From Pseudomonadota bacterium (GTDB taxonomy: Bacteria; Pseudomonadota; Gammaproteobacteria; Burkholderiales; JABEVD01), in the NCBI GenBank assembly GCA_021802545.1, contig JAJZRS010000013.1:1-64000 (forward strand): 64,000 bases of DNA. The letters run 5' to 3'. Every line of letters starts with the position of its first letter. The first letter of the stretch is position 1. The notes under the pieces were generated by a model. That model ran no database searches. It saw only the letters and a list, made by a program, of their open reading frames with translations, and was not told where the DNA came from. The translations under genes were made by a program, and so were the position numbers. Shown piece by piece: positions 17,708 through 35,140 of this stretch.

Positions 17708-18765
<1,058 letters not shown>

Positions 18766-18766
<1 letters not shown>

Positions 18767-23150: not shown

Positions 23151-24013
23151 GGCCCATCCTTTTTCTTTGCATTGCAGCGGCGCTTCTGGCCGGCTGCGCC
23201 GGAGAGCCTGTTCAGGCCCCGATATCAAAAGCGCCTGCCGAACAACATCCGCACCATTATGCGAGGGGGGGCGGCTACTATCTCGACGACGGCCCGGGGG
23301 ACAATCCTCCCGCCGATCTCGACTCGATTCCGGACGCAATCCCCAGAATGGAGAAGCTGATCGCTGCCTGCAACAAGCCCTACACCACGATGGGAAAAAC
23401 CTACTATCCCGAGACGAGCCTCGAGCCTTATCGGGAAACGGGCGTCGCATCCTGGTACGGCAGGCGCTACAACGGACACAAAACCTCGTCGGGGGAAAAT
23501 TACGACATGTACGCCATGACGGCCGCCCACCCGACGCTTGCCATACCGAGCTATGCACGGGTCACCAACCTGGAAAACGGCAGATCGGTCATCGTCAGGA
23601 TCAACGACAGGGGACCTTTCCGGTCTGACAGGCTGATCGATCTTTCCTACACGGCGGCCTACAAGCTCGGCCTCGTACGGGGAGGAAGCGGAAGGGTTGA
23701 AGTGGACAGCATCATTCCCGGGGAAACCGAATATGCCGCATCGGCGAGCTACGAATCCGCAAGCCCCCAGGAAGCGCCTTCCCGCAACGAAGGGCTTTAT
23801 CTGCAGCTAGGCGCCTTCTCGGAAAAGAGCAATGCCCAGCATTTCGTCGACCAGCATCGGGGCGAGCTTGCCGACTATTCGCCCGAGATCGTGAATTCGA
23901 ACGGGATATACAAGGTTCATGTCGGCCCCTATCCGAGCAGGATCGAGGCAGAAAGCGCCGCCGGAAAAATCGCCCGGCTCCTGGACATCACTCCGGTCGT
24001 CACCCGCCAGTAG
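23147..24013 (+). CDS. rlpA: Septal ring lytic transglycosylase RlpA (lipoprotein, SPOR domain)
   Basis: Lipobox LLAGCAG, GVASWYGRRYNGHKTSSGENYDMYAMTAAHPTLAIPSYARVTNLENGRSVIVRINDRGPF, C-terminal SPOR; ATGA overlap with the rodA stop. Confidence 0.94.
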   Translation: MRPILFLCIAAALLAGCAGEPVQAPISKAPAEQHPHHYARGGGYYLDDGPGDNPPADLDSIPDAIPRMEKLIAACNKPYTTMGKTYYPETSLEPYRETGVASWYGRRYNGHKTSSGENYDMYAMTAAHPTLAIPSYARVTNLENGRSVIVRINDRGPFRSDRLIDLSYTAAYKLGLVRGGSGRVEVDSIIPGETEYAASASYESASPQEAPSRNEGLYLQLGAFSEKSNAQHFVDQHRGELADYSPEIVNSNGIYKVHVGPYPSRIEAESAAGKIARLLDITPVVTRQ

Positions 24014-25421
24014 GGCTCCAGCCGCCGCCAAGCGCGCGGATGAGCCCTACGCTCGCCTGCAGCCTTCTCTTCCTGAGGTTCAATTCGTCGAGCTGTGCCT
24101 GCTGCGCAGCAGTCTGGGCGACGGTCACTTCCAGGTAGCTCACCGCCCCTTCCCGATAGCGGTTCATCGCAAGATCGAGCGCGTGCTTCGTGTCGGCAAC
24201 GGCGGCCTTCAGGGAAATCGATTCCCTGGCGAGATCGTTGAGCAGGGCTAGATTGTCTTCGGCTTCCTGAAAGGCCTTCAGCACGGTGGCCCGATATTTC
24301 GCTCCCTCCTCATCGAAAACCGCTTGCGCTTCCCTGACCCTGGCTTCTCGCCTCCCCGCATCGAAGATTGTCAATAAAGCCGATGGTCCGACAGACCATA
24401 TCAGGTTGGGATAGGTGAGCAGCGCAGGCTGGTACATGCCTTCGTAGCCCCCCGAAGCAAAAAGATTTATCGTTGGAAAAAATGCGGCCTTCGCCATGCC
24501 TATCCTCGCGTTGGCAGCGAACAGCCTTCTTTCGGCAGCTGCGATGTCCGGCCTTCTCTGCAGAAGCGTCGCTGGCACGCCTACCGGAACGGCGGGCAAT
24601 TGAAGATCGATGAGCGCAGGCTTGAGCTTGAAGGATGAAGCCGGAACGCCGACCAGGGTCGCGATGGCATGCTCATAGAGGGCACGTTCCGCAGCCGTGT
24701 CGGCCAACCTCGCCTGTGCGGAATCGAGCTGAGCCTTGGCGCGGGAGACGTCGAGGGCCGAGTCGATTCCCCCTTCGAACCGGTTGCGGGTCATCGTCAG
24801 CGCCTTCGAATAGGCAGCAACTTCTCCCGAAAGCAGATTCGTCTGTGCATCGAGGGTACGCAGGGCAAGGTAGTTGTCAGCGAGCTCTGCCCTCAGGCTC
24901 AGCCTCACCGACTCGAGGTCTGCAGCCGCAGCCTGGGCCCCTGCCTCACCTGCGGCAGCGAGGTTGCGAACCCTTCCCCACAGGTCCACTTCGTAATCGG
25001 CCATCAGGCCGACTGCATTGTCGCCATAGACAATCGGCCCCCTGCTCGTCGGGCTTCTTGTCGCCCTGTACACGGATTGCTTGTTCCGGGTGACATGGGC
25101 GCCTGCATTGACTGTTGGATAAAGGTAGGAATTCGCCTCTGATGCATAAGCCATCGCTTCGTCGAAATGCGCGACCGCCACAGCAAGATCGGCATTGGCA
25201 ACCGAAAGCTGGTCCATCAGCTTGTCCAGGGTGAGATCATGATAGATCTTCCACCATTTTCCCCTCGGCAGCCTATCCGAAGGCTTCGCTTCCTTCCAGA
25301 TGCCGGCAGCCTCCTTGTAGGCCTTGGGCACGGGAATATCCGGTTTCTTGTAGGTCGGCGCGAGCGAACAGCCGGCAATCGCAGCTGAAATCAACACAAT
25401 AACTAGGCGCGCTGAAATCAT
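24000..25421 (-). CDS. RND efflux outer-membrane factor (NodT/OprM family lipoprotein)
   Basis: Lipobox AAIAGCSLAPTYKKPDIPVP, VPVGVPATLLQRRPDIAAAERRL. Confidence 0.93.
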   Translation of the reverse strand: MISARLVIVLISAAIAGCSLAPTYKKPDIPVPKAYKEAAGIWKEAKPSDRLPRGKWWKIYHDLTLDKLMDQLSVANADLAVAVAHFDEAMAYASEANSYLYPTVNAGAHVTRNKQSVYRATRSPTSRGPIVYGDNAVGLMADYEVDLWGRVRNLAAAGEAGAQAAAADLESVRLSLRAELADNYLALRTLDAQTNLLSGEVAAYSKALTMTRNRFEGGIDSALDVSRAKAQLDSAQARLADTAAERALYEHAIATLVGVPASSFKLKPALIDLQLPAVPVGVPATLLQRRPDIAAAERRLFAANARIGMAKAAFFPTINLFASGGYEGMYQPALLTYPNLIWSVGPSALLTIFDAGRREARVREAQAVFDEEGAKYRATVLKAFQEAEDNLALLNDLARESISLKAAVADTKHALDLAMNRYREGAVSYLEVTVAQTAAQQAQLDELNLRKRRLQASVGLIRALGGGWSPTGG

Positions 25422-26587
25422 TATTTCACCTTTTGCCCAGTCTGCTTGATCCTGACCAAGTCACCCTGCAATATTGAATCGGAAGGACTGTCAATGACCC
25501 GATCCGTATTGCTCAAACCTGCGATCACTTCCTCCACTCTTCCCAAGTCCCTGCTTATCTTGATGCTCTTCAGCACCACATGGTTGTCGGGCCCCACGGT
25601 AGCGACTTGCAGCCCCTCCTTGCGGAACAGCAAAGTACTCGCTGGTATCCTGTACACGTCACTCTTCGAAGGCAGCAAGAAATGGACTTCGGCATAGGTG
25701 CCTGGAAGAATATTGCCATCCTCGTTGTCCATTTGCAATTCGACAGTCAATGTTCTCGTTTTGACGTTGAGTCCATTGGAAGTGCTGACCAAGGTTGCCT
25801 GAAATGGCGTCGTCGGATGTTCCGGAAAATAGAGTTCGACTTTTGCTCCTACGCTGATCTGGGTCGAGTAATTCTGAGGCACATCCACATAGATCCGAAG
25901 CTTGTGGATGTCCGCGACCTGGAAAAGCGGCTTTCCGCTGTTGCTACCGAGATTGATCAACTGACCTATATCGGTATTGCGCTCAGTCACCACCCCGTCG
26001 AAAGGAGCAGTCACGCGGTTAAAAGACTGCTGGGCAAGAAGGCTTTGCAGGTTGGCCTGCGCAGCCTTCAAGATGTCCTGTTTGGATTTTGCATCGGCAA
26101 CCTTCTCGTCAGTCGCCTGGCGGGAAACAGAATCGGATGCAAGAAGATTCTGCCAGCGCTGCGCGGTGATTTTCGCAATTTCCAGGTTGGCTTCGGCGGT
26201 TGAAAGATTGGCTCTGGCACGCATGATTTGTTCATCGAGCTCAGGCGTATCGATCAATCCAAGAACCTGCCCTTTTTTGACTTTGGCGCCAATATCTGTA
26301 TACCAGATTTTCAAATATCCATTCACACGCGCATAGATCGGCGCAGTGTAGTCGGCCATCACATTTCCGGGCAGAATCAGCGTTTCCTCGCTCGGCCCAT
26401 ATTTCGGCGTGACCACGCTAACCGTCTGGATGTTTTCCTGAACCACTTCCTTGCGCAGATCCTTCTCATGATGAAGTCTGCTGATGATGCCGATCACCGC
26501 CATCGTGATCGCGGCCAATGCAAAAACGATTCCTGCTCGGCGAAGCGCCTTGGTAGGAACGTGATGTGGTGGAATTTCATTGGACAT
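25421..26587 (-). CDS. RND efflux periplasmic adaptor (HlyD/MFP family)
   Basis: GYLKIWYTDIGAKVKKGQVLGLIDTPELDEQI, PFDGVVTERNTDIGQLI. Confidence 0.93.
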   Translation of the reverse strand: MSNEIPPHHVPTKALRRAGIVFALAAITMAVIGIISRLHHEKDLRKEVVQENIQTVSVVTPKYGPSEETLILPGNVMADYTAPIYARVNGYLKIWYTDIGAKVKKGQVLGLIDTPELDEQIMRARANLSTAEANLEIAKITAQRWQNLLASDSVSRQATDEKVADAKSKQDILKAAQANLQSLLAQQSFNRVTAPFDGVVTERNTDIGQLINLGSNSGKPLFQVADIHKLRIYVDVPQNYSTQISVGAKVELYFPEHPTTPFQATLVSTSNGLNVKTRTLTVELQMDNEDGNILPGTYAEVHFLLPSKSDVYRIPASTLLFRKEGLQVATVGPDNHVVLKSIKISRDLGRVEEVIAGLSNTDRVIDSPSDSILQGDLVRIKQTGQKVK

Positions 26588-26602: not shown

Positions 26603-29600
26603 TCATTGGTTGGATTCTTCAATTTCTTTCTGCCCGGAATGCACCAGGCTGAATATGACTGGCACGAAAAACAGGGTTGCCGTAGTGGCGAACATCAGCC
26701 CGCCGATCACCGCGCGGCCCAGCGGAGCGTTCTGCTCTCCGCCTTCCCCGAGGCCAAGGGCCATCGGCGCCATGCCGATGATCATGGCGAGCGCGGTCAT
26801 CAGCACCGGCCGGAAGCGGATATAGCCTGCCTCGAGCGCTGCAGTGATGCCGCTGTCTCCCTGGTCGAGCCGCTCCCGTGCAAAGCTCACCACCAAAATG
26901 CTGTTCGCCGTCGCAACCCCCATGCACATGATCGCGCCGATCAGCGCAGGCACCGAAAGGGTCGTGTTCGTGGCGAAAAGCATCCATACGATCCCCGCCA
27001 ATGCCGCGGGCAGGGCCGTGATGATGACGAACGGATCAAGCCAGGACTGGAAATTCACCACGATCAGGAGATAGATCAAAACGATGGCTCCGAGCAGCCC
27101 GAAAAACAAGCCGCTATATGCGTTGTTCATGGCCTTGATCTGCCCGCGCATCACGACAGTCGACCCCTTGGGCACGTCCTTCGCCGTCTCCTTCATCGCC
27201 CTGTCGATGTCCTTCGCCACATCCCCAAGATCCCGCCCCTGCGTCGAACCGAAGATGTCAATCGTCGGCTGAACGTCATAATGCGATACCACCCCTTCCC
27301 CCTGGCTCCGCGTGATATTCGCAAAAGCACCCAGAATCTGCGGCTTAGCCCCAGAGCTCGACGTCATCATGATGTTCTGCAAATCGTTCAGGGTATCCAT
27401 CCGGTACTGCGGTGTCTGAACCACCAAAGGATACGAAACATGGTTCCTCGGATTCACCCAGAAGTTTGGCGCTGTCTGCAAACTGCCGGAAAGCGACACC
27501 AGCAGGTTGGTCGCAATGTCGTGCTGGCTGAAGCCGAGTTCCTGCGCGCGCGTCCTGTCCACGTCCACATGGAATTCAGGCTGATCGAACGCCTGCTGAA
27601 CACGCAAGTCCATCAGCCCGGGTATCTGCTTAATCCGGCTCATCAGTTTCACTGCATACGCCTGGTCCGCCTTGCGATTGAATCCGATCACCTGTACGTC
27701 GATCGGCGCAGGCAACCCGAAATTCAGGATCTGGCTCACGATGTCCGCAGGCAAAAAGGCGAAGGTGACGCCGGGGAAATCCGCCCTCAGCTTCACTCGC
27801 AGCGATTTCACGTACTCGGCGGTCGGCCTGTGCCCCTCGTTCAGCGATATCAGAATGTCCGCATCCCCCGGACCAATCGGCGAGGAATTGCTGTAGGTCA
27901 GATTCACGCCGCTCACCGGCAGGCCGATGTTGTCCACGATATTCTTCACCTCGACAGGCGGGATCATGCCCCTGATGTCCCGTTCGATCAAATCGCAAAG
28001 CCGCGCCGTCTCCTCGAGCCTTGTGCCGGTCTGCGCCCTGATATGGAGCTTGATCTGCCCCGCGTCCACAGCAGGGAAGAAATTTTCCCCGAGCCAGGGA
28101 ACGAGCGCGAAGGAAAGCAGCACGAATCCAAGGAAGCCCAGGATGAATGTCCGCCTGTAGGAAAGCGCCATCAGCAGAAGATTGCGGTACTTCTCTCGAA
28201 CTATGGTAAAGCGCTTCTCGAAGCCGCGCTGGAACCTGACCAGGGGATTCCTGGAAACGGGCTCATGCCCTTCTTCGTGCATCACATGCATCTTAAGAAG
28301 GTATTTCGCCAGGGTCGGCACCAGCGTACGGGAAAGAATAAAGGAAGCGATCATCGAGAAAATCACCGCTTCTGCGAGCGGAACGAACAGGTACTTCGAT
28401 ACCCCGGTCAGGAAAAACATCGGAATGAACACGATGCAGATCGAAAGCAGCGACACGAATGCAGGCACGACGATCTGGCTCGCTCCGTCAAGGATCGCAG
28501 CCTCCACATGCTTGCCGTGCTCGAGGTGCCAGTTGATGCTTTCGATCGTCACCGTCGCCTCGTCGACCAGTATCCCCACCGCAAGCGCAAGGCCGCCGAG
28601 CGTCATGATGTTGATCGTCTGGCCGGCCACCGAAAGCGCAATGATGGAAGCCATAATGGAAAGCGGAATCGAAATGGTGACGATGATGGTCGAACGCCAG
28701 CTTCCCAGGAAGAGCATGATCATCAGTGAAGTGAGTGCGGCTGCGATCACCCCTTCGCGGATCACCCCGGCCACCGCAGACTTGACGAACAGCGACTGGT
28801 CGCCAACCAGCTTCACAATCAGCCCCGGCGGTGCACTTGCCTCGATCTTGGGCAGCAGCCGCTTGACATGCTCGATGATGTCCAGCGTCGAGGCCGCGCC
28901 GTTCTTCTGCACCGTCGTCAGCACCGAATGCCGTCCGTTGACCCGAACCATGTTCTGCTGCGGGGAGAAGCCGTCGCGCACATGCGCCACGTCCCTGACG
29001 TAGATGGTGGCGCCGTTCACCGTCTTGACAGGCAAATTATTGAGGTCGTCCAGAATCTTCGGGCTTGCATTGAGCAGAACGTTTTCTTCGAATTTGCTGA
29101 CCTTCTCGGTTCCCGCGGGGAGAATCAGGCTCTGCTTCGCGATCGCATAGGTCACGTCGTCGGGGGAAAGCCCTTTGGAGCGCAAGGCCTGCATGTCGAG
29201 ATCGACCTGGATCTGCCTGTTCTTCCCGCCATAGGGGGACGGCACAGCAGCACCCTCCACTTCGGCAAGCTGCGGACGGATGAAGTTGTTCGAAATGTCG
29301 AAAAGCTGGTTGTCCAGCAGCGTCTTGCTCGATAGCGCGAGCTGCAGAACGGGGACGGAAGAAGCGTTGTAGCTCAGGATCAATGGCGGCGTGATCCCAG
29401 GGGGAAGGCGCTTCAGCACGGTCTGCGACAAGGCGGTCACCTGGCTCACCGCAGCGTTGATGTTCACGTTCGGCTGAAAGAAAATCTTGACGATGCCCAC
29501 CCCCGCCAAAGACTGCGATTCGATATGTTCGATATCGTTCACGGACGAGGTCAGCTGGCGCTCGTAGAAGGTGACGATCCGGTTCGACATGTCCGCAGGC

Positions 29601-29767
29601 GGCATCCCGTTGTATGTCCATACCGCAGCAACCACAGGCACCTTGATGTCCGGGAAGATATCGGTGCGCATGTTCACATAGACCAGCGGCCCGAGAATCA
29701 GAATCAGCAGGGCGAGAACAATAAACGTATACGGTCGGCTCAGGGCGATCCGGACGATCCACAGCAT
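26603..29767 (-). CDS. RND efflux pump, inner-membrane permease (tandem copy 1)
   Basis: AcrB/MdtB-like, 1054 aa; RPYTFIVLALLILILGPLVYVNMRTDIFPDI, GLALAVGILVDEATVTIE. Confidence 0.95.
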   Translation of the reverse strand: MLWIVRIALSRPYTFIVLALLILILGPLVYVNMRTDIFPDIKVPVVAAVWTYNGMPPADMSNRIVTFYERQLTSSVNDIEHIESQSLAGVGIVKIFFQPNVNINAAVSQVTALSQTVLKRLPPGITPPLILSYNASSVPVLQLALSSKTLLDNQLFDISNNFIRPQLAEVEGAAVPSPYGGKNRQIQVDLDMQALRSKGLSPDDVTYAIAKQSLILPAGTEKVSKFEENVLLNASPKILDDLNNLPVKTVNGATIYVRDVAHVRDGFSPQQNMVRVNGRHSVLTTVQKNGAASTLDIIEHVKRLLPKIEASAPPGLIVKLVGDQSLFVKSAVAGVIREGVIAAALTSLMIMLFLGSWRSTIIVTISIPLSIMASIIALSVAGQTINIMTLGGLALAVGILVDEATVTIESINWHLEHGKHVEAAILDGASQIVVPAFVSLLSICIVFIPMFFLTGVSKYLFVPLAEAVIFSMIASFILSRTLVPTLAKYLLKMHVMHEEGHEPVSRNPLVRFQRGFEKRFTIVREKYRNLLLMALSYRRTFILGFLGFVLLSFALVPWLGENFFPAVDAGQIKLHIRAQTGTRLEETARLCDLIERDIRGMIPPVEVKNIVDNIGLPVSGVNLTYSNSSPIGPGDADILISLNEGHRPTAEYVKSLRVKLRADFPGVTFAFLPADIVSQILNFGLPAPIDVQVIGFNRKADQAYAVKLMSRIKQIPGLMDLRVQQAFDQPEFHVDVDRTRAQELGFSQHDIATNLLVSLSGSLQTAPNFWVNPRNHVSYPLVVQTPQYRMDTLNDLQNIMMTSSSGAKPQILGAFANITRSQGEGVVSHYDVQPTIDIFGSTQGRDLGDVAKDIDRAMKETAKDVPKGSTVVMRGQIKAMNNAYSGLFFGLLGAIVLIYLLIVVNFQSWLDPFVIITALPAALAGIVWMLFATNTTLSVPALIGAIMCMGVATANSILVVSFARERLDQGDSGITAALEAGYIRFRPVLMTALAMIIGMAPMALGLGEGGEQNAPLGRAVIGGLMFATTATLFFVPVIFSLVHSGQKEIEESNQ
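26870..29544. repeat. Direct tandem repeat unit A (RND copy 1), apparently identical to 30091..32765
   Basis: Offset 3221 bp; first mismatches by eye at 26869/30090 and 29545/32766; identical sense and antisense translations between them. Confidence 0.9.
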
Positions 29768-29805
29768 GCGGTGACCTCACATTCGTTTAGGCAAACTGGT
29801 GGACA

Positions 29806-32800
29806 TTATACCGACTCCGGCCGCAACATATTAGAATATGATTGTTTTTCAGATTTCGAATGCACCAGGCTGAAAACAGTTGGCACGAAAAACAGGGTTG
29901 CCGTAGTGGCGAACATCAGTCCGCCGATCACCGCGCGGCCCAGCGGAGCGTTCTGCTCTCCGCCATCACCTAGGCCGAGCGCCATGGGGATCATGCCGAT
30001 GATCATGGCGAGCGCGGTCATCAAAACAGGGCGGAATCGCACGAAACCCGCTTCGATGGCAGCAGTGATGCCGCTGTCTCCCTGGTCGAACCGCTCCCGT
30101 GCAAAGCTCACCACCAAAATGCTGTTCGCCGTCGCAACCCCCATGCACATGATCGCGCCGATCAGCGCAGGCACCGAAAGGGTCGTGTTCGTGGCGAAAA
30201 GCATCCATACGATCCCCGCCAATGCCGCGGGCAGGGCCGTGATGATGACGAACGGATCAAGCCAGGACTGGAAATTCACCACGATCAGGAGATAGATCAA
30301 AACGATGGCTCCGAGCAGCCCGAAAAACAAGCCGCTATATGCGTTGTTCATGGCCTTGATCTGCCCGCGCATCACGACAGTCGACCCCTTGGGCACGTCC
30401 TTCGCCGTCTCCTTCATCGCCCTGTCGATGTCCTTCGCCACATCCCCAAGATCCCGCCCCTGCGTCGAACCGAAGATGTCAATCGTCGGCTGAACGTCAT
30501 AATGCGATACCACCCCTTCCCCCTGGCTCCGCGTGATATTCGCAAAAGCACCCAGAATCTGCGGCTTAGCCCCAGAGCTCGACGTCATCATGATGTTCTG
30601 CAAATCGTTCAGGGTATCCATCCGGTACTGCGGTGTCTGAACCACCAAAGGATACGAAACATGGTTCCTCGGATTCACCCAGAAGTTTGGCGCTGTCTGC
30701 AAACTGCCGGAAAGCGACACCAGCAGGTTGGTCGCAATGTCGTGCTGGCTGAAGCCGAGTTCCTGCGCGCGCGTCCTGTCCACGTCCACATGGAATTCAG
30801 GCTGATCGAACGCCTGCTGAACACGCAAGTCCATCAGCCCGGGTATCTGCTTAATCCGGCTCATCAGTTTCACTGCATACGCCTGGTCCGCCTTGCGATT
30901 GAATCCGATCACCTGTACGTCGATCGGCGCAGGCAACCCGAAATTCAGGATCTGGCTCACGATGTCCGCAGGCAAAAAGGCGAAGGTGACGCCGGGGAAA
31001 TCCGCCCTCAGCTTCACTCGCAGCGATTTCACGTACTCGGCGGTCGGCCTGTGCCCCTCGTTCAGCGATATCAGAATGTCCGCATCCCCCGGACCAATCG
31101 GCGAGGAATTGCTGTAGGTCAGATTCACGCCGCTCACCGGCAGGCCGATGTTGTCCACGATATTCTTCACCTCGACAGGCGGGATCATGCCCCTGATGTC
31201 CCGTTCGATCAAATCGCAAAGCCGCGCCGTCTCCTCGAGCCTTGTGCCGGTCTGCGCCCTGATATGGAGCTTGATCTGCCCCGCGTCCACAGCAGGGAAG
31301 AAATTTTCCCCGAGCCAGGGAACGAGCGCGAAGGAAAGCAGCACGAATCCAAGGAAGCCCAGGATGAATGTCCGCCTGTAGGAAAGCGCCATCAGCAGAA
31401 GATTGCGGTACTTCTCTCGAACTATGGTAAAGCGCTTCTCGAAGCCGCGCTGGAACCTGACCAGGGGATTCCTGGAAACGGGCTCATGCCCTTCTTCGTG
31501 CATCACATGCATCTTAAGAAGGTATTTCGCCAGGGTCGGCACCAGCGTACGGGAAAGAATAAAGGAAGCGATCATCGAGAAAATCACCGCTTCTGCGAGC
31601 GGAACGAACAGGTACTTCGATACCCCGGTCAGGAAAAACATCGGAATGAACACGATGCAGATCGAAAGCAGCGACACGAATGCAGGCACGACGATCTGGC
31701 TCGCTCCGTCAAGGATCGCAGCCTCCACATGCTTGCCGTGCTCGAGGTGCCAGTTGATGCTTTCGATCGTCACCGTCGCCTCGTCGACCAGTATCCCCAC
31801 CGCAAGCGCAAGGCCGCCGAGCGTCATGATGTTGATCGTCTGGCCGGCCACCGAAAGCGCAATGATGGAAGCCATAATGGAAAGCGGAATCGAAATGGTG
31901 ACGATGATGGTCGAACGCCAGCTTCCCAGGAAGAGCATGATCATCAGTGAAGTGAGTGCGGCTGCGATCACCCCTTCGCGGATCACCCCGGCCACCGCAG
32001 ACTTGACGAACAGCGACTGGTCGCCAACCAGCTTCACAATCAGCCCCGGCGGTGCACTTGCCTCGATCTTGGGCAGCAGCCGCTTGACATGCTCGATGAT
32101 GTCCAGCGTCGAGGCCGCGCCGTTCTTCTGCACCGTCGTCAGCACCGAATGCCGTCCGTTGACCCGAACCATGTTCTGCTGCGGGGAGAAGCCGTCGCGC
32201 ACATGCGCCACGTCCCTGACGTAGATGGTGGCGCCGTTCACCGTCTTGACAGGCAAATTATTGAGGTCGTCCAGAATCTTCGGGCTTGCATTGAGCAGAA
32301 CGTTTTCTTCGAATTTGCTGACCTTCTCGGTTCCCGCGGGGAGAATCAGGCTCTGCTTCGCGATCGCATAGGTCACGTCGTCGGGGGAAAGCCCTTTGGA
32401 GCGCAAGGCCTGCATGTCGAGATCGACCTGGATCTGCCTGTTCTTCCCGCCATAGGGGGACGGCACAGCAGCACCCTCCACTTCGGCAAGCTGCGGACGG
32501 ATGAAGTTGTTCGAAATGTCGAAAAGCTGGTTGTCCAGCAGCGTCTTGCTCGATAGCGCGAGCTGCAGAACGGGGACGGAAGAAGCGTTGTAGCTCAGGA
32601 TCAATGGCGGCGTGATCCCAGGGGGAAGGCGCTTCAGCACGGTCTGCGACAAGGCGGTCACCTGGCTCACCGCAGCGTTGATGTTCACGTTCGGCTGAAA
32701 GAAAATCTTGACGATGCCCACCCCCGCCAAAGACTGCGATTCGATATGTTCGATATCGTTCACGGTTGAAGTCAGCTGGCGCTCGTAGAAGGTGACGATC

Positions 32801-32988
32801 CGGTTCGACATGTCCGCAGGCGGCATCCCGTTGTATGTCCATACCGCAGCAACCACAGGCACATTGATGTCCGGGAAGATATCGGTGCGCATGTTCACAT
32901 AGACCAGCGGCCCCAGAAGCAATATCAGCAGGGCGAGAACAATAAACGTATACGGTCGGCTCAATGCGACCCGAACAATCCAAATCAT
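29806..32988 (-). CDS. RND efflux pump, inner-membrane permease (tandem copy 2)
   Basis: 1060 aa, near-identical to copy 1 except in about 75 N-terminal and about 100 C-terminal residues. Confidence 0.95.
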   Translation of the reverse strand: MIWIVRVALSRPYTFIVLALLILLLGPLVYVNMRTDIFPDINVPVVAAVWTYNGMPPADMSNRIVTFYERQLTSTVNDIEHIESQSLAGVGIVKIFFQPNVNINAAVSQVTALSQTVLKRLPPGITPPLILSYNASSVPVLQLALSSKTLLDNQLFDISNNFIRPQLAEVEGAAVPSPYGGKNRQIQVDLDMQALRSKGLSPDDVTYAIAKQSLILPAGTEKVSKFEENVLLNASPKILDDLNNLPVKTVNGATIYVRDVAHVRDGFSPQQNMVRVNGRHSVLTTVQKNGAASTLDIIEHVKRLLPKIEASAPPGLIVKLVGDQSLFVKSAVAGVIREGVIAAALTSLMIMLFLGSWRSTIIVTISIPLSIMASIIALSVAGQTINIMTLGGLALAVGILVDEATVTIESINWHLEHGKHVEAAILDGASQIVVPAFVSLLSICIVFIPMFFLTGVSKYLFVPLAEAVIFSMIASFILSRTLVPTLAKYLLKMHVMHEEGHEPVSRNPLVRFQRGFEKRFTIVREKYRNLLLMALSYRRTFILGFLGFVLLSFALVPWLGENFFPAVDAGQIKLHIRAQTGTRLEETARLCDLIERDIRGMIPPVEVKNIVDNIGLPVSGVNLTYSNSSPIGPGDADILISLNEGHRPTAEYVKSLRVKLRADFPGVTFAFLPADIVSQILNFGLPAPIDVQVIGFNRKADQAYAVKLMSRIKQIPGLMDLRVQQAFDQPEFHVDVDRTRAQELGFSQHDIATNLLVSLSGSLQTAPNFWVNPRNHVSYPLVVQTPQYRMDTLNDLQNIMMTSSSGAKPQILGAFANITRSQGEGVVSHYDVQPTIDIFGSTQGRDLGDVAKDIDRAMKETAKDVPKGSTVVMRGQIKAMNNAYSGLFFGLLGAIVLIYLLIVVNFQSWLDPFVIITALPAALAGIVWMLFATNTTLSVPALIGAIMCMGVATANSILVVSFARERFDQGDSGITAAIEAGFVRFRPVLMTALAMIIGMIPMALGLGDGGEQNAPLGRAVIGGLMFATTATLFFVPTVFSLVHSKSEKQSYSNMLRPESV
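30091..32765. repeat. Direct tandem repeat unit B (RND copy 2)
   Basis: See unit A; same offset of 3221 bp throughout. Confidence 0.9.
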
Positions 32989-33111: not shown

Positions 33112-34473
33112 TTACTCGACGAACCTATGAAGACTGAGGGGCCGGCATAAAATGGTTGCGCGCGTACCTGAATCGACCTCCCCGAACTCGAACTCGAAGT
33201 CGTGCAATCCGACGATGGCCGTGACAATGGAAAGCCCGAGACCGGAGCCAGGCGCATTCCTGCCGTTCTCTCCCCGATAGAAACGATTGAGCACGGCGGC
33301 CCGCTCGTTCGCCTTGATGCCCGGCCCCGTGTCGACAATGTCTATTCTCGCCCCGCCCGATTCCCTTGATAATTTCGCAGTGACTTTTCCGCCAGGTGGA
33401 GTGAACTTGATCGCATTGTCGAGCAGATTGGCGATTGCCTCGAAAAGCAGTTCCCCATCGCCCTGTACGGCATCGACCTCTTCCTTTTCAAGAACGAGGT
33501 CGATCGACTTGTCTTCGGCAAGAGGCTCGAGAAAAACGACCGCCTGCTCCATGATGTCCGGCAGCTCCACCATTTGGAATCCGGCCCGCCTCTGCTTGTT
33601 CTCGATCTCTGAAATGCGCAACAGGGCGCGAAAGCGCTGAAGCAGTGCATCCATTTCGGAAATCACCTGCTCGAGCACGGGAACCTGCCCTTGTTGCTGC
33701 GCCCTATAAATCAATGCCCTGAGTCGCGTCAATGGCGTACGCAGGTCGTGCGCGATGCTGTCGCACACGCTCTTCACTTCTGACATCAGCCTTTCGATCT
33801 CGTCAAGCGTCTTGTTCACGATGGCGGTCAGCATGTCGAGCTCGTCGCGCTTTCTTGAAATCGGCAATCTTTGCTTGATGTCGCCGCGCATGATCAGCTC
33901 GCAGACGCGCTGGATTTCATCGATGCGCGAAAGGGGCCTGAAGCTCGATGCGAACCCAAAGATCAGCCCGAGGGCGACCGTCAATGTCCCGCCCCAGAAG
34001 AATGCGCCCTTCATGATTTCCCTGAACTCGACAAGCTGCTGGGCGTCATGCCCAAGCAAAAGCCAGTTGCCCGAATTCAGCCTGATGACCCTTGCCCGAA
34101 CGACGCTGGAAGGAAAGGGAGGCGTCTTCCGAGGCATGATGATCTCGTGTATGTTGCCGTCCCTGGGCAAGTTCTCCGGAATTTCATGGATGTTGCCCGC
34201 GACCAGCGCATTCCCTGCAAAAAGCCCGTAAAGATAGATGTGCCGCTTGTCCCGCTCGATGCTTTCCGTGATCTTGCGGGGCAGTCTGTCGGGCGCCGCC
34301 TGGGAGAAATCCTTCTCTTCTAGATTCAGGATCTGATCGACGCGGCGGGTCATTTCCCTTGCCGTCTTCCAGTACACGAAACCCAGCAGCATGACCACGC
34401 AAAGCGTGAAAAAAATACTGTAGACCAGGGTCAGCCTGAACGTGGTCGTTCTGGAGAGCTTAGCGATGTTCAC
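33112..34473 (-). CDS. Sensor histidine kinase (HAMP/HisKA/HATPase)
   Basis: DSIAHDLRTPLTRLRALI H-box, NLLDNAIKFTPPGGKV, GSGLGLSIVTAIV. A GTG start at 34473 is likely, near the preceding regulator stop; ORF open to 34530. Confidence 0.92.
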   Translation of the reverse strand: MNIAKLSRTTTFRLTLVYSIFFTLCVVMLLGFVYWKTAREMTRRVDQILNLEEKDFSQAAPDRLPRKITESIERDKRHIYLYGLFAGNALVAGNIHEIPENLPRDGNIHEIIMPRKTPPFPSSVVRARVIRLNSGNWLLLGHDAQQLVEFREIMKGAFFWGGTLTVALGLIFGFASSFRPLSRIDEIQRVCELIMRGDIKQRLPISRKRDELDMLTAIVNKTLDEIERLMSEVKSVCDSIAHDLRTPLTRLRALIYRAQQQGQVPVLEQVISEMDALLQRFRALLRISEIENKQRRAGFQMVELPDIMEQAVVFLEPLAEDKSIDLVLEKEEVDAVQGDGELLFEAIANLLDNAIKFTPPGGKVTAKLSRESGGARIDIVDTGPGIKANERAAVLNRFYRGENGRNAPGSGLGLSIVTAIVGLHDFEFEFGEVDSGTRATILCRPLSLHRFVE

Positions 34474-35140
34474 CGAGGATGTATCCGGTACCGCGCACGG
34501 TGTGAATGAGGGGAGGAAGGCCTGGCGCATCCACCTTGCGGCGCAGGCGCCCGATATGCACGTCGATGATGTTTGTGCCCGGGTCGAAGTGGTAGCCCCA
34601 TACCGACTCGAACAGCATGGTGCGCGTGAGTATCTGTTCGGAATTTCGCATCATGTATTCGAGCAGGCGGAATTCCATGGGAAGAAGATCCAGCCTGATC
34701 TTGCGTCGCGTGACCGTCCTTGAGACAAGATCGAGCTCGAGATCCTGCACGCGCAGCACGGTTTGCGGCGCCTGCCTGTCCTTTCTTCTCAGGAGGACCT
34801 CGACCCTGGCCGCCATCTCGTCGGACGCGAATGGCTTGACCAGGTAATCGTCTCCGCCCGCACGCAACCCGTGCACCCTGTCGTCCACATCGCTGAGGGC
34901 GCTGATCATCAGCACGGGCGTGTCGATGTTGTCACGCCGCATGGCGGTCACGATGGCCAGGCCGTCCATGCCCGGAAGCATCCTGTCGAGCGTGATGAGG
35001 TCGAAATTGCCGGACAATGCGCGCACCAACCCTGTCATGCCGTTGTCGACCCATTCCACGTCGAAACCGTGCCCGCCCAGCTCGGCGATGATCTCGCGGG
35101 CAGTCGTTTCATCGTCCTCTATTGTCAGAATTTTCGCCAT
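34460..35140 (-). CDS. OmpR-family response regulator
   Basis: ILTIEDDETTAREI, LITLDRMLPGMDGLAIV, C-terminal wHTH TRTMLFESVWGYHFDPGTNIIDVHIGRLRRKVD. Confidence 0.95.
   Translation of the reverse strand: MAKILTIEDDETTAREIIAELGGHGFDVEWVDNGMTGLVRALSGNFDLITLDRMLPGMDGLAIVTAMRRDNIDTPVLMISALSDVDDRVHGLRAGGDDYLVKPFASDEMAARVEVLLRRKDRQAPQTVLRVQDLELDLVSRTVTRRKIRLDLLPMEFRLLEYMMRNSEQILTRTMLFESVWGYHFDPGTNIIDVHIGRLRRKVDAPGLPPLIHTVRGTGYILGEHR

Follow-up and report, generated by a model that had tools for sequence, protein, structure and literature searches.

Adjacent RND permease genes with an identical core and divergent ends: probable repeated conversion of an older tandem duplication in a tripartite efflux operon

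How can two adjacent genes be identical over most of their length, silent sites included, and yet differ at both ends? The question is raised by two efflux permease genes in the window, a 64-kb stretch of DNA from the genome referred to here as G000. The first-pass annotation had described them as tandem RND pump genes, and two complete permease ORFs indeed lie side by side on the minus strand: RND_B (29806..32988, 1060 aa) upstream and RND_A (26603..29767, 1054 aa) downstream, hereafter B and A, with a 38-base spacer from the B stop to the A start (29768..29805). Both are full-length matches to Pfam ACR_tran, PF00873 (E=9e-198 for A and 6e-198 for B; 660 bits vs a gathering cutoff of 28). None of the NCBIfam permease models reached its cutoff for either protein, and assignment to the CusA/CzcA heavy-metal RND group was rejected, TIGR00914 scoring about 425-427 bits vs a cutoff of 701. 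The operon, all on the minus strand, begins with an OmpR-type response regulator (34460..35140; Pfam Response_reg and Trans_reg_C) and a sensor histidine kinase (33112..34530; Pfam HATPase_c and HAMP), a neighbour that is kept in relatives. It continues through B and A to a periplasmic adaptor (MFP; 25421..26587; TIGR01730 RND_mfp above cutoff), 15 bases past A, and an outer-membrane channel subunit of the NodT/OEP family (24000..25421; TIGR01845 above cutoff).

Self-comparison of the window confirmed a shared block of about 2.67 kb, as had been claimed: 26870..29544 in A and 30091..32765 in B, i.e. positions 224-2898 of each gene (numbered from 1), show 0/2675 mismatches at an offset of 3221 bases. 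Only two full copies of the block, these two, occur in the 2.77 Mb assembly. The abrupt divergence reported at its ends is also real, with the C- and N-terminal differences present as quoted. The nearest mismatches outside the block are at 26869 and 29545; from there, identity drops to 84-91% in 100-base steps at the low-coordinate end and 97% at the high-coordinate end, after which homology stops. The matching antisense ORFs that had been pointed out are present too, but they are a trivial outcome, since the DNA of both blocks is identical. Each flank carries its own residues. The N-terminal flanks (29545..29767 in A, 32766..32988 in B; 93.7% identity) have L2, K42 and S75 in A and I2, N42 and T75 in B, and the C-terminal flanks (26603..26869 and 29806..30090, respectively) have Y982, I983, A1000 and E1008 in A and F982, V983, I1000 and D1008 in B, each followed by its own tail.

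The contrast between core and flanks is extreme. A and B differ at 46/456 flank positions and at 0/2673 core positions (Fisher 4e-40), and all 46 discordant sites fall in the flanks even though the core contains 953 of the 1118 positions that vary within the genus (log10 P = -40.8). At the 657 synonymous sites of the core, dS is 0 (upper bound about 0.005), as opposed to 0.19 (0.185) for the N flank and 0.44 for the C flank. Between G000 and another genome of the genus, G008, the core diverges by about 19%, on par with the flanks, with a core dS of 0.89-0.96. Since the core is thus as variable as the flanks between genomes and its identity within G000 extends to silent sites, purifying selection cannot explain it. 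Identity that takes in silent sites and stops at sharp edges inside both permease genes is what concerted evolution would produce.

To place the pair in its genus, eight other genomes were compared, all confirmed as members. Four of the eight (G001, G003, G005 and G006) have a single permease between the histidine kinase and the adaptor, a G002 contig is likewise of the single-copy type, with one permease between the kinase and the adaptor start, and in G007 the efflux system is absent. The tandem pair recurs in G008, an independent assembly. There, contig C2 spans the kinase, the whole of B, a different spacer of 95 bases and A up to base 1416, while contig C46 begins at position 2788 of A and runs on into the adaptor and channel. 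Over the first 1289 bases, A and B of G008 differ at 112 (about 8%). Both contig ends share exactly 127 bases with B, and the next base already differs. The 1.37 kb middle of copy A is not in the assembly, and its equality with B is deduced: because exact 127-base overlaps are the mark of a k=127 graph breaking at an identical repeat, we infer that the two G008 copies cannot be told apart at gene positions 1290-2914, about 1625 bases. At the 3' side the blocks of the two genomes end only 16 bases apart (2914 in G008 vs 2898 in the window). Since their 5' edges differ (1290 vs 224), they look like separate events.

Just before the G008 block, copy A is unusual. The stretch at about positions 1076-1289 (L035:14318-14531) is about 18% different from copy B, and it encodes D403/N410 where B and the window's genes have E403/S410, near the conserved intramembrane acidic pair. 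It is possibly a segment of ancient A that escaped conversion; the sites count 22 vs 10 in favour of such an A-type island (p 0.05) for a stretch picked post hoc, with a tree that gives no resolution. A dispersed third RND paralogue as donor of this stretch (about 1075-1290) was rejected, because its identity to G008 copy A there is no higher than to B.

Two further groups of observations concern the same gene in other bins. Contigs of two near-identical genomes break within it (C36/C138 in G004, C92/C128 in G002), the G002 break lying at position 2798, about 127 bases before the point where A and B diverge. The position of the G002 break hints at another concealed, converted tandem, though no second permease copy was found in the G004 and G002b bins. 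In a different genome, BP4.bin40, the kinase and adaptor enclose a tandem pair of its own (L042:4001-10947). Each member is 77-80% identical to the RND_A protein, the pair is about 72-79% alike in DNA, and it has no homogenised block.

How, then, are the four genes of G000 and G008 related? The first-pass annotation had proposed that, under conversion, the core should unite the copies of each genome and the flanks the orthologues. The first part of this expectation is strongly borne out. In the core tree (positions 223-1416), the two G000 genes pair with each other, as do the two G008 genes (100/100 each), and a tree constrained to unite the A genes scores 269 log units lower (p-AU about 1e-27), which rejects the orthologue tree. 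In the core, paralogues are therefore closer within a genome than orthologues between genomes, the pattern of concerted evolution. No donor is indicated, as the G000 core shares 36 sites with G008 A only and 34 with G008 B only.

The second part holds at the level of residues and site patterns and fails as a nucleotide tree. The A residues L2, K42, S75, Y982, I983, A1000 and E1008 are found in both A genes, and their B counterparts in both B genes. Among the terminal diagnostic nucleotide sites, 13 follow A=A/B=B vs 1 with a cross pattern (binomial p 0.002), the 13 representing about 10 independent codons as several share a codon. The genes start with ATGCTGTGGATCGTC in A and ATGATTTGGATTGTT in B, each identical between G000 and G008 over the first 15 bases, and the two starts differ from each other at two silent sites. 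The C-terminal types extend further: the A type is common to A of G008 and mostly also to G004 and G002b, and the B type is common to B of G008 and the single-copy species. In a tree built from four neighbour genes, G000 falls with G008 and G004/G002b, away from the single-copy species with the B type. In the flank nucleotide tree, the C flank included, A and B clades were not recovered from these short, partly homogenised flanks. Given the 13:1 site patterns and the A-type C termini of G004/G002b, the duplication is likely older than the split of G000 and G008; this age is not certain, since flank silent sites are closer within genomes (dS 0.19-0.44) than between them (0.72-0.97) and the flank tree lacks the A and B clades.

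Taken together, repeated gene conversion, or an equivalent cycle of expansion and contraction, acting on an older tandem duplication in the efflux operon is very probably the history of this locus. The original suggestion of conversion homogenising an older duplication gains its support from the clustering of the core by genome and from the terminal residues that the A genes, and likewise the B genes, have in common across genomes. The sequence of events was probably as follows. An RND permease gene would have been duplicated in tandem within the two-component-regulated tripartite operon. Homologous recombination, presumably of the RecA type, between direct repeats 3.2 kb apart would then have copied sequence repeatedly. 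It may have done so through non-reciprocal gene conversion, or an unequal crossover may have produced three copies of which one was then lost. Either route would leave a homogenised core with the outer and inner ends kept, so that the two would look alike in sequence. The latest event in G000 would have spanned about 2.67 kb, nearly all of the homologous stretch, ending about 225-270 bases from the gene ends; that in G008 would have been separate, about 1.6 kb long, with a 3' end at almost the same position. The gene ends would thereby have retained their A- and B-specific residues.

Converted tracts stop close to where homology itself runs out, and the paralogue-specific residues sit in these same parts of the genes. 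The tract ends may thus be mechanical, or they may reflect selection against conversion at those positions. Both genomes hold the same residue at these codons amid mostly homogenised surroundings, and the candidate subunit-specific positions would perhaps be N-terminal codons 2, 42 and 75 together with 982-983, 1000 and 1008 near the last transmembrane helices. A rather doubtful extension of these sequence patterns is that A and B have become different subunits, which may assemble into a mixed trimer, with selection acting against conversion at these few residues while recombination homogenises everything else. If it were true, the locus would be a natural experiment mapping subunit-specific residues in an RND pump; in either case, the persistently paralogue-specific residues are testable candidates for subunit-specific function.

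How literally should the perfect identity be taken? In the G000 assembly many pairs of contigs share terminal overlaps of exactly 127 bases, and no 16S gene was found. Both features are typical of short-read metagenome assembly and mark G000 as a k=127 short-read assembly. An exact repeat of 2.7 kb should be passable in such a graph, as the path from left flank through core, middle and core to right flank is unique, and both printed cores could come from one graph edge; this account of the assembler is drawn from its output. Since printing from one edge is possible, the perfect identity may rest on one measurement instead of two, and the number of exactly two copies is an apparent one. Further tandem repeats of the permease unit would stay invisible at k=127, and isolated differences in the core could have been collapsed. 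It is accordingly possible, though not the reading we would choose, that the exactness is an assembly effect, near-identical cores having been collapsed into one edge and printed twice. The overlaps and the missing 16S gene are in keeping with this, as is a repeat longer than usual inserts, across which the contig was probably joined via loop topology. Such an effect would be compatible with conversion, and it has a limit: divergence like that of the flanks leaves few common 127-mers and would not collapse, just as the G008 copies, about 8% apart, were kept separate at k=127. Even if collapsed, the two cores must therefore resemble each other much more closely than the flanks do.

An unlikely alternative to a single older duplication is that tandem duplication took place separately in the lineages of G000 and G008, each followed by conversion of the core, with the A and B termini arising twice or by selection. 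The lower dS within than between genomes, even in the flanks, would fit this history, as would a flank tree without A/B resolution and the BP4.bin40 pair, by which this gene has been tandemly duplicated more than once. It must, however, accommodate the 13 vs 1 common site patterns, which include two silent sites within the 15 bases at the gene start, and an A-type C terminus in G004/G002b as well, and it still requires conversion in G000 for the contrast between core and flanks.

The first-pass annotation had named an assembly artefact as the main alternative. For the exactness of the identity this concern remains, as set out above. For the duplication itself, i.e. a single real gene from which a short-read assembly invented a tandem, it is highly improbable, because the independent G008 assembly shows this gene order too, with a spacer unlike that of the window; moreover, A and B diverge from each other at the 5' and the 3' end alike, and a unique junction (3' end of B, 38-base spacer, 5' end of A) links two different gene ends. 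Finally, a plain recent tandem duplication with its core held identical by purifying selection, suggested by the adjacent direct repeats, is barely credible and is contradicted by 0 synonymous changes in 657 core sites vs 16-34% of synonymous sites differing in the flanks, and by a core that varies as much as the flanks between genomes.

Conversion of duplicated bacterial genes has familiar precedents. In enterobacteria, tufA and tufB are kept alike by homologous recombination. The same process keeps rRNA operon copies alike in enterobacteria, as described in a study on their gene conversion (PMC8022953). The tuf and rRNA copies are scattered over the genome and equivalent in function, whereas A and B are 38 bases apart with distinct termini. 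More broadly, recurrent concerted evolution has been reported for 26 genes of bacteria and archaea, ammonia-oxidation genes among them, in which within-genome paralogues are more alike than orthologues, and was ascribed to gene conversion (PMC6053082); the main text of that report makes no mention of RND, efflux or transporter genes. Unlike those cases, A and B are adjacent in one operon and their unconverted ends are visible. A literature search on gene conversion in RND pump genes gave no relevant report. Concerted evolution of prokaryotic paralogues being already established, the pair is a clear-cut if unexceptional instance of it, and we judge its most unusual aspect to be the few paralogue-specific residues surviving in both genomes.

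Within the RND family, the closest likeness is to MdtBC/MuxBC, which likewise pair two adjoining homologous permease genes with a single adaptor in the same operon; by sequence, MdtB is the nearest solved structure to A and B. The MdtBC/MuxBC permeases go back to an ancient duplication, and each groups with its orthologues (PMC7015380), the reverse of the grouping by genome seen in the A/B core, and the adaptor follows the permeases here, unlike in MdtBC/MuxBC. Membership in MdtBC was rejected on equivalog scores of about 342 vs 1584 and 343-348 vs 1774 bits and on the clustering of the core by genome. The locus thus offers a clear case of within-operon gene conversion in a transporter family whose best-studied tandem pair, MdtBC, stayed divergent. 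It also illustrates how recently converted tandems behave in short-read metagenomes, either fragmenting with exact k-base overlaps or being printed as perfect twins, so that neither the number of copies nor their exact identity should be read literally from such assemblies.

Two minor observations were made in the window. The MreB protein (17720-18766) is 99.4-100% identical to that of three species of the same genus, as against only 73-89% identity for their efflux genes. In addition, an RlpA-like ORF on the plus strand, ending at 24013, overlaps the end of the minus-strand channel gene, which extends from 24000, by 14 bases (24000-24013).
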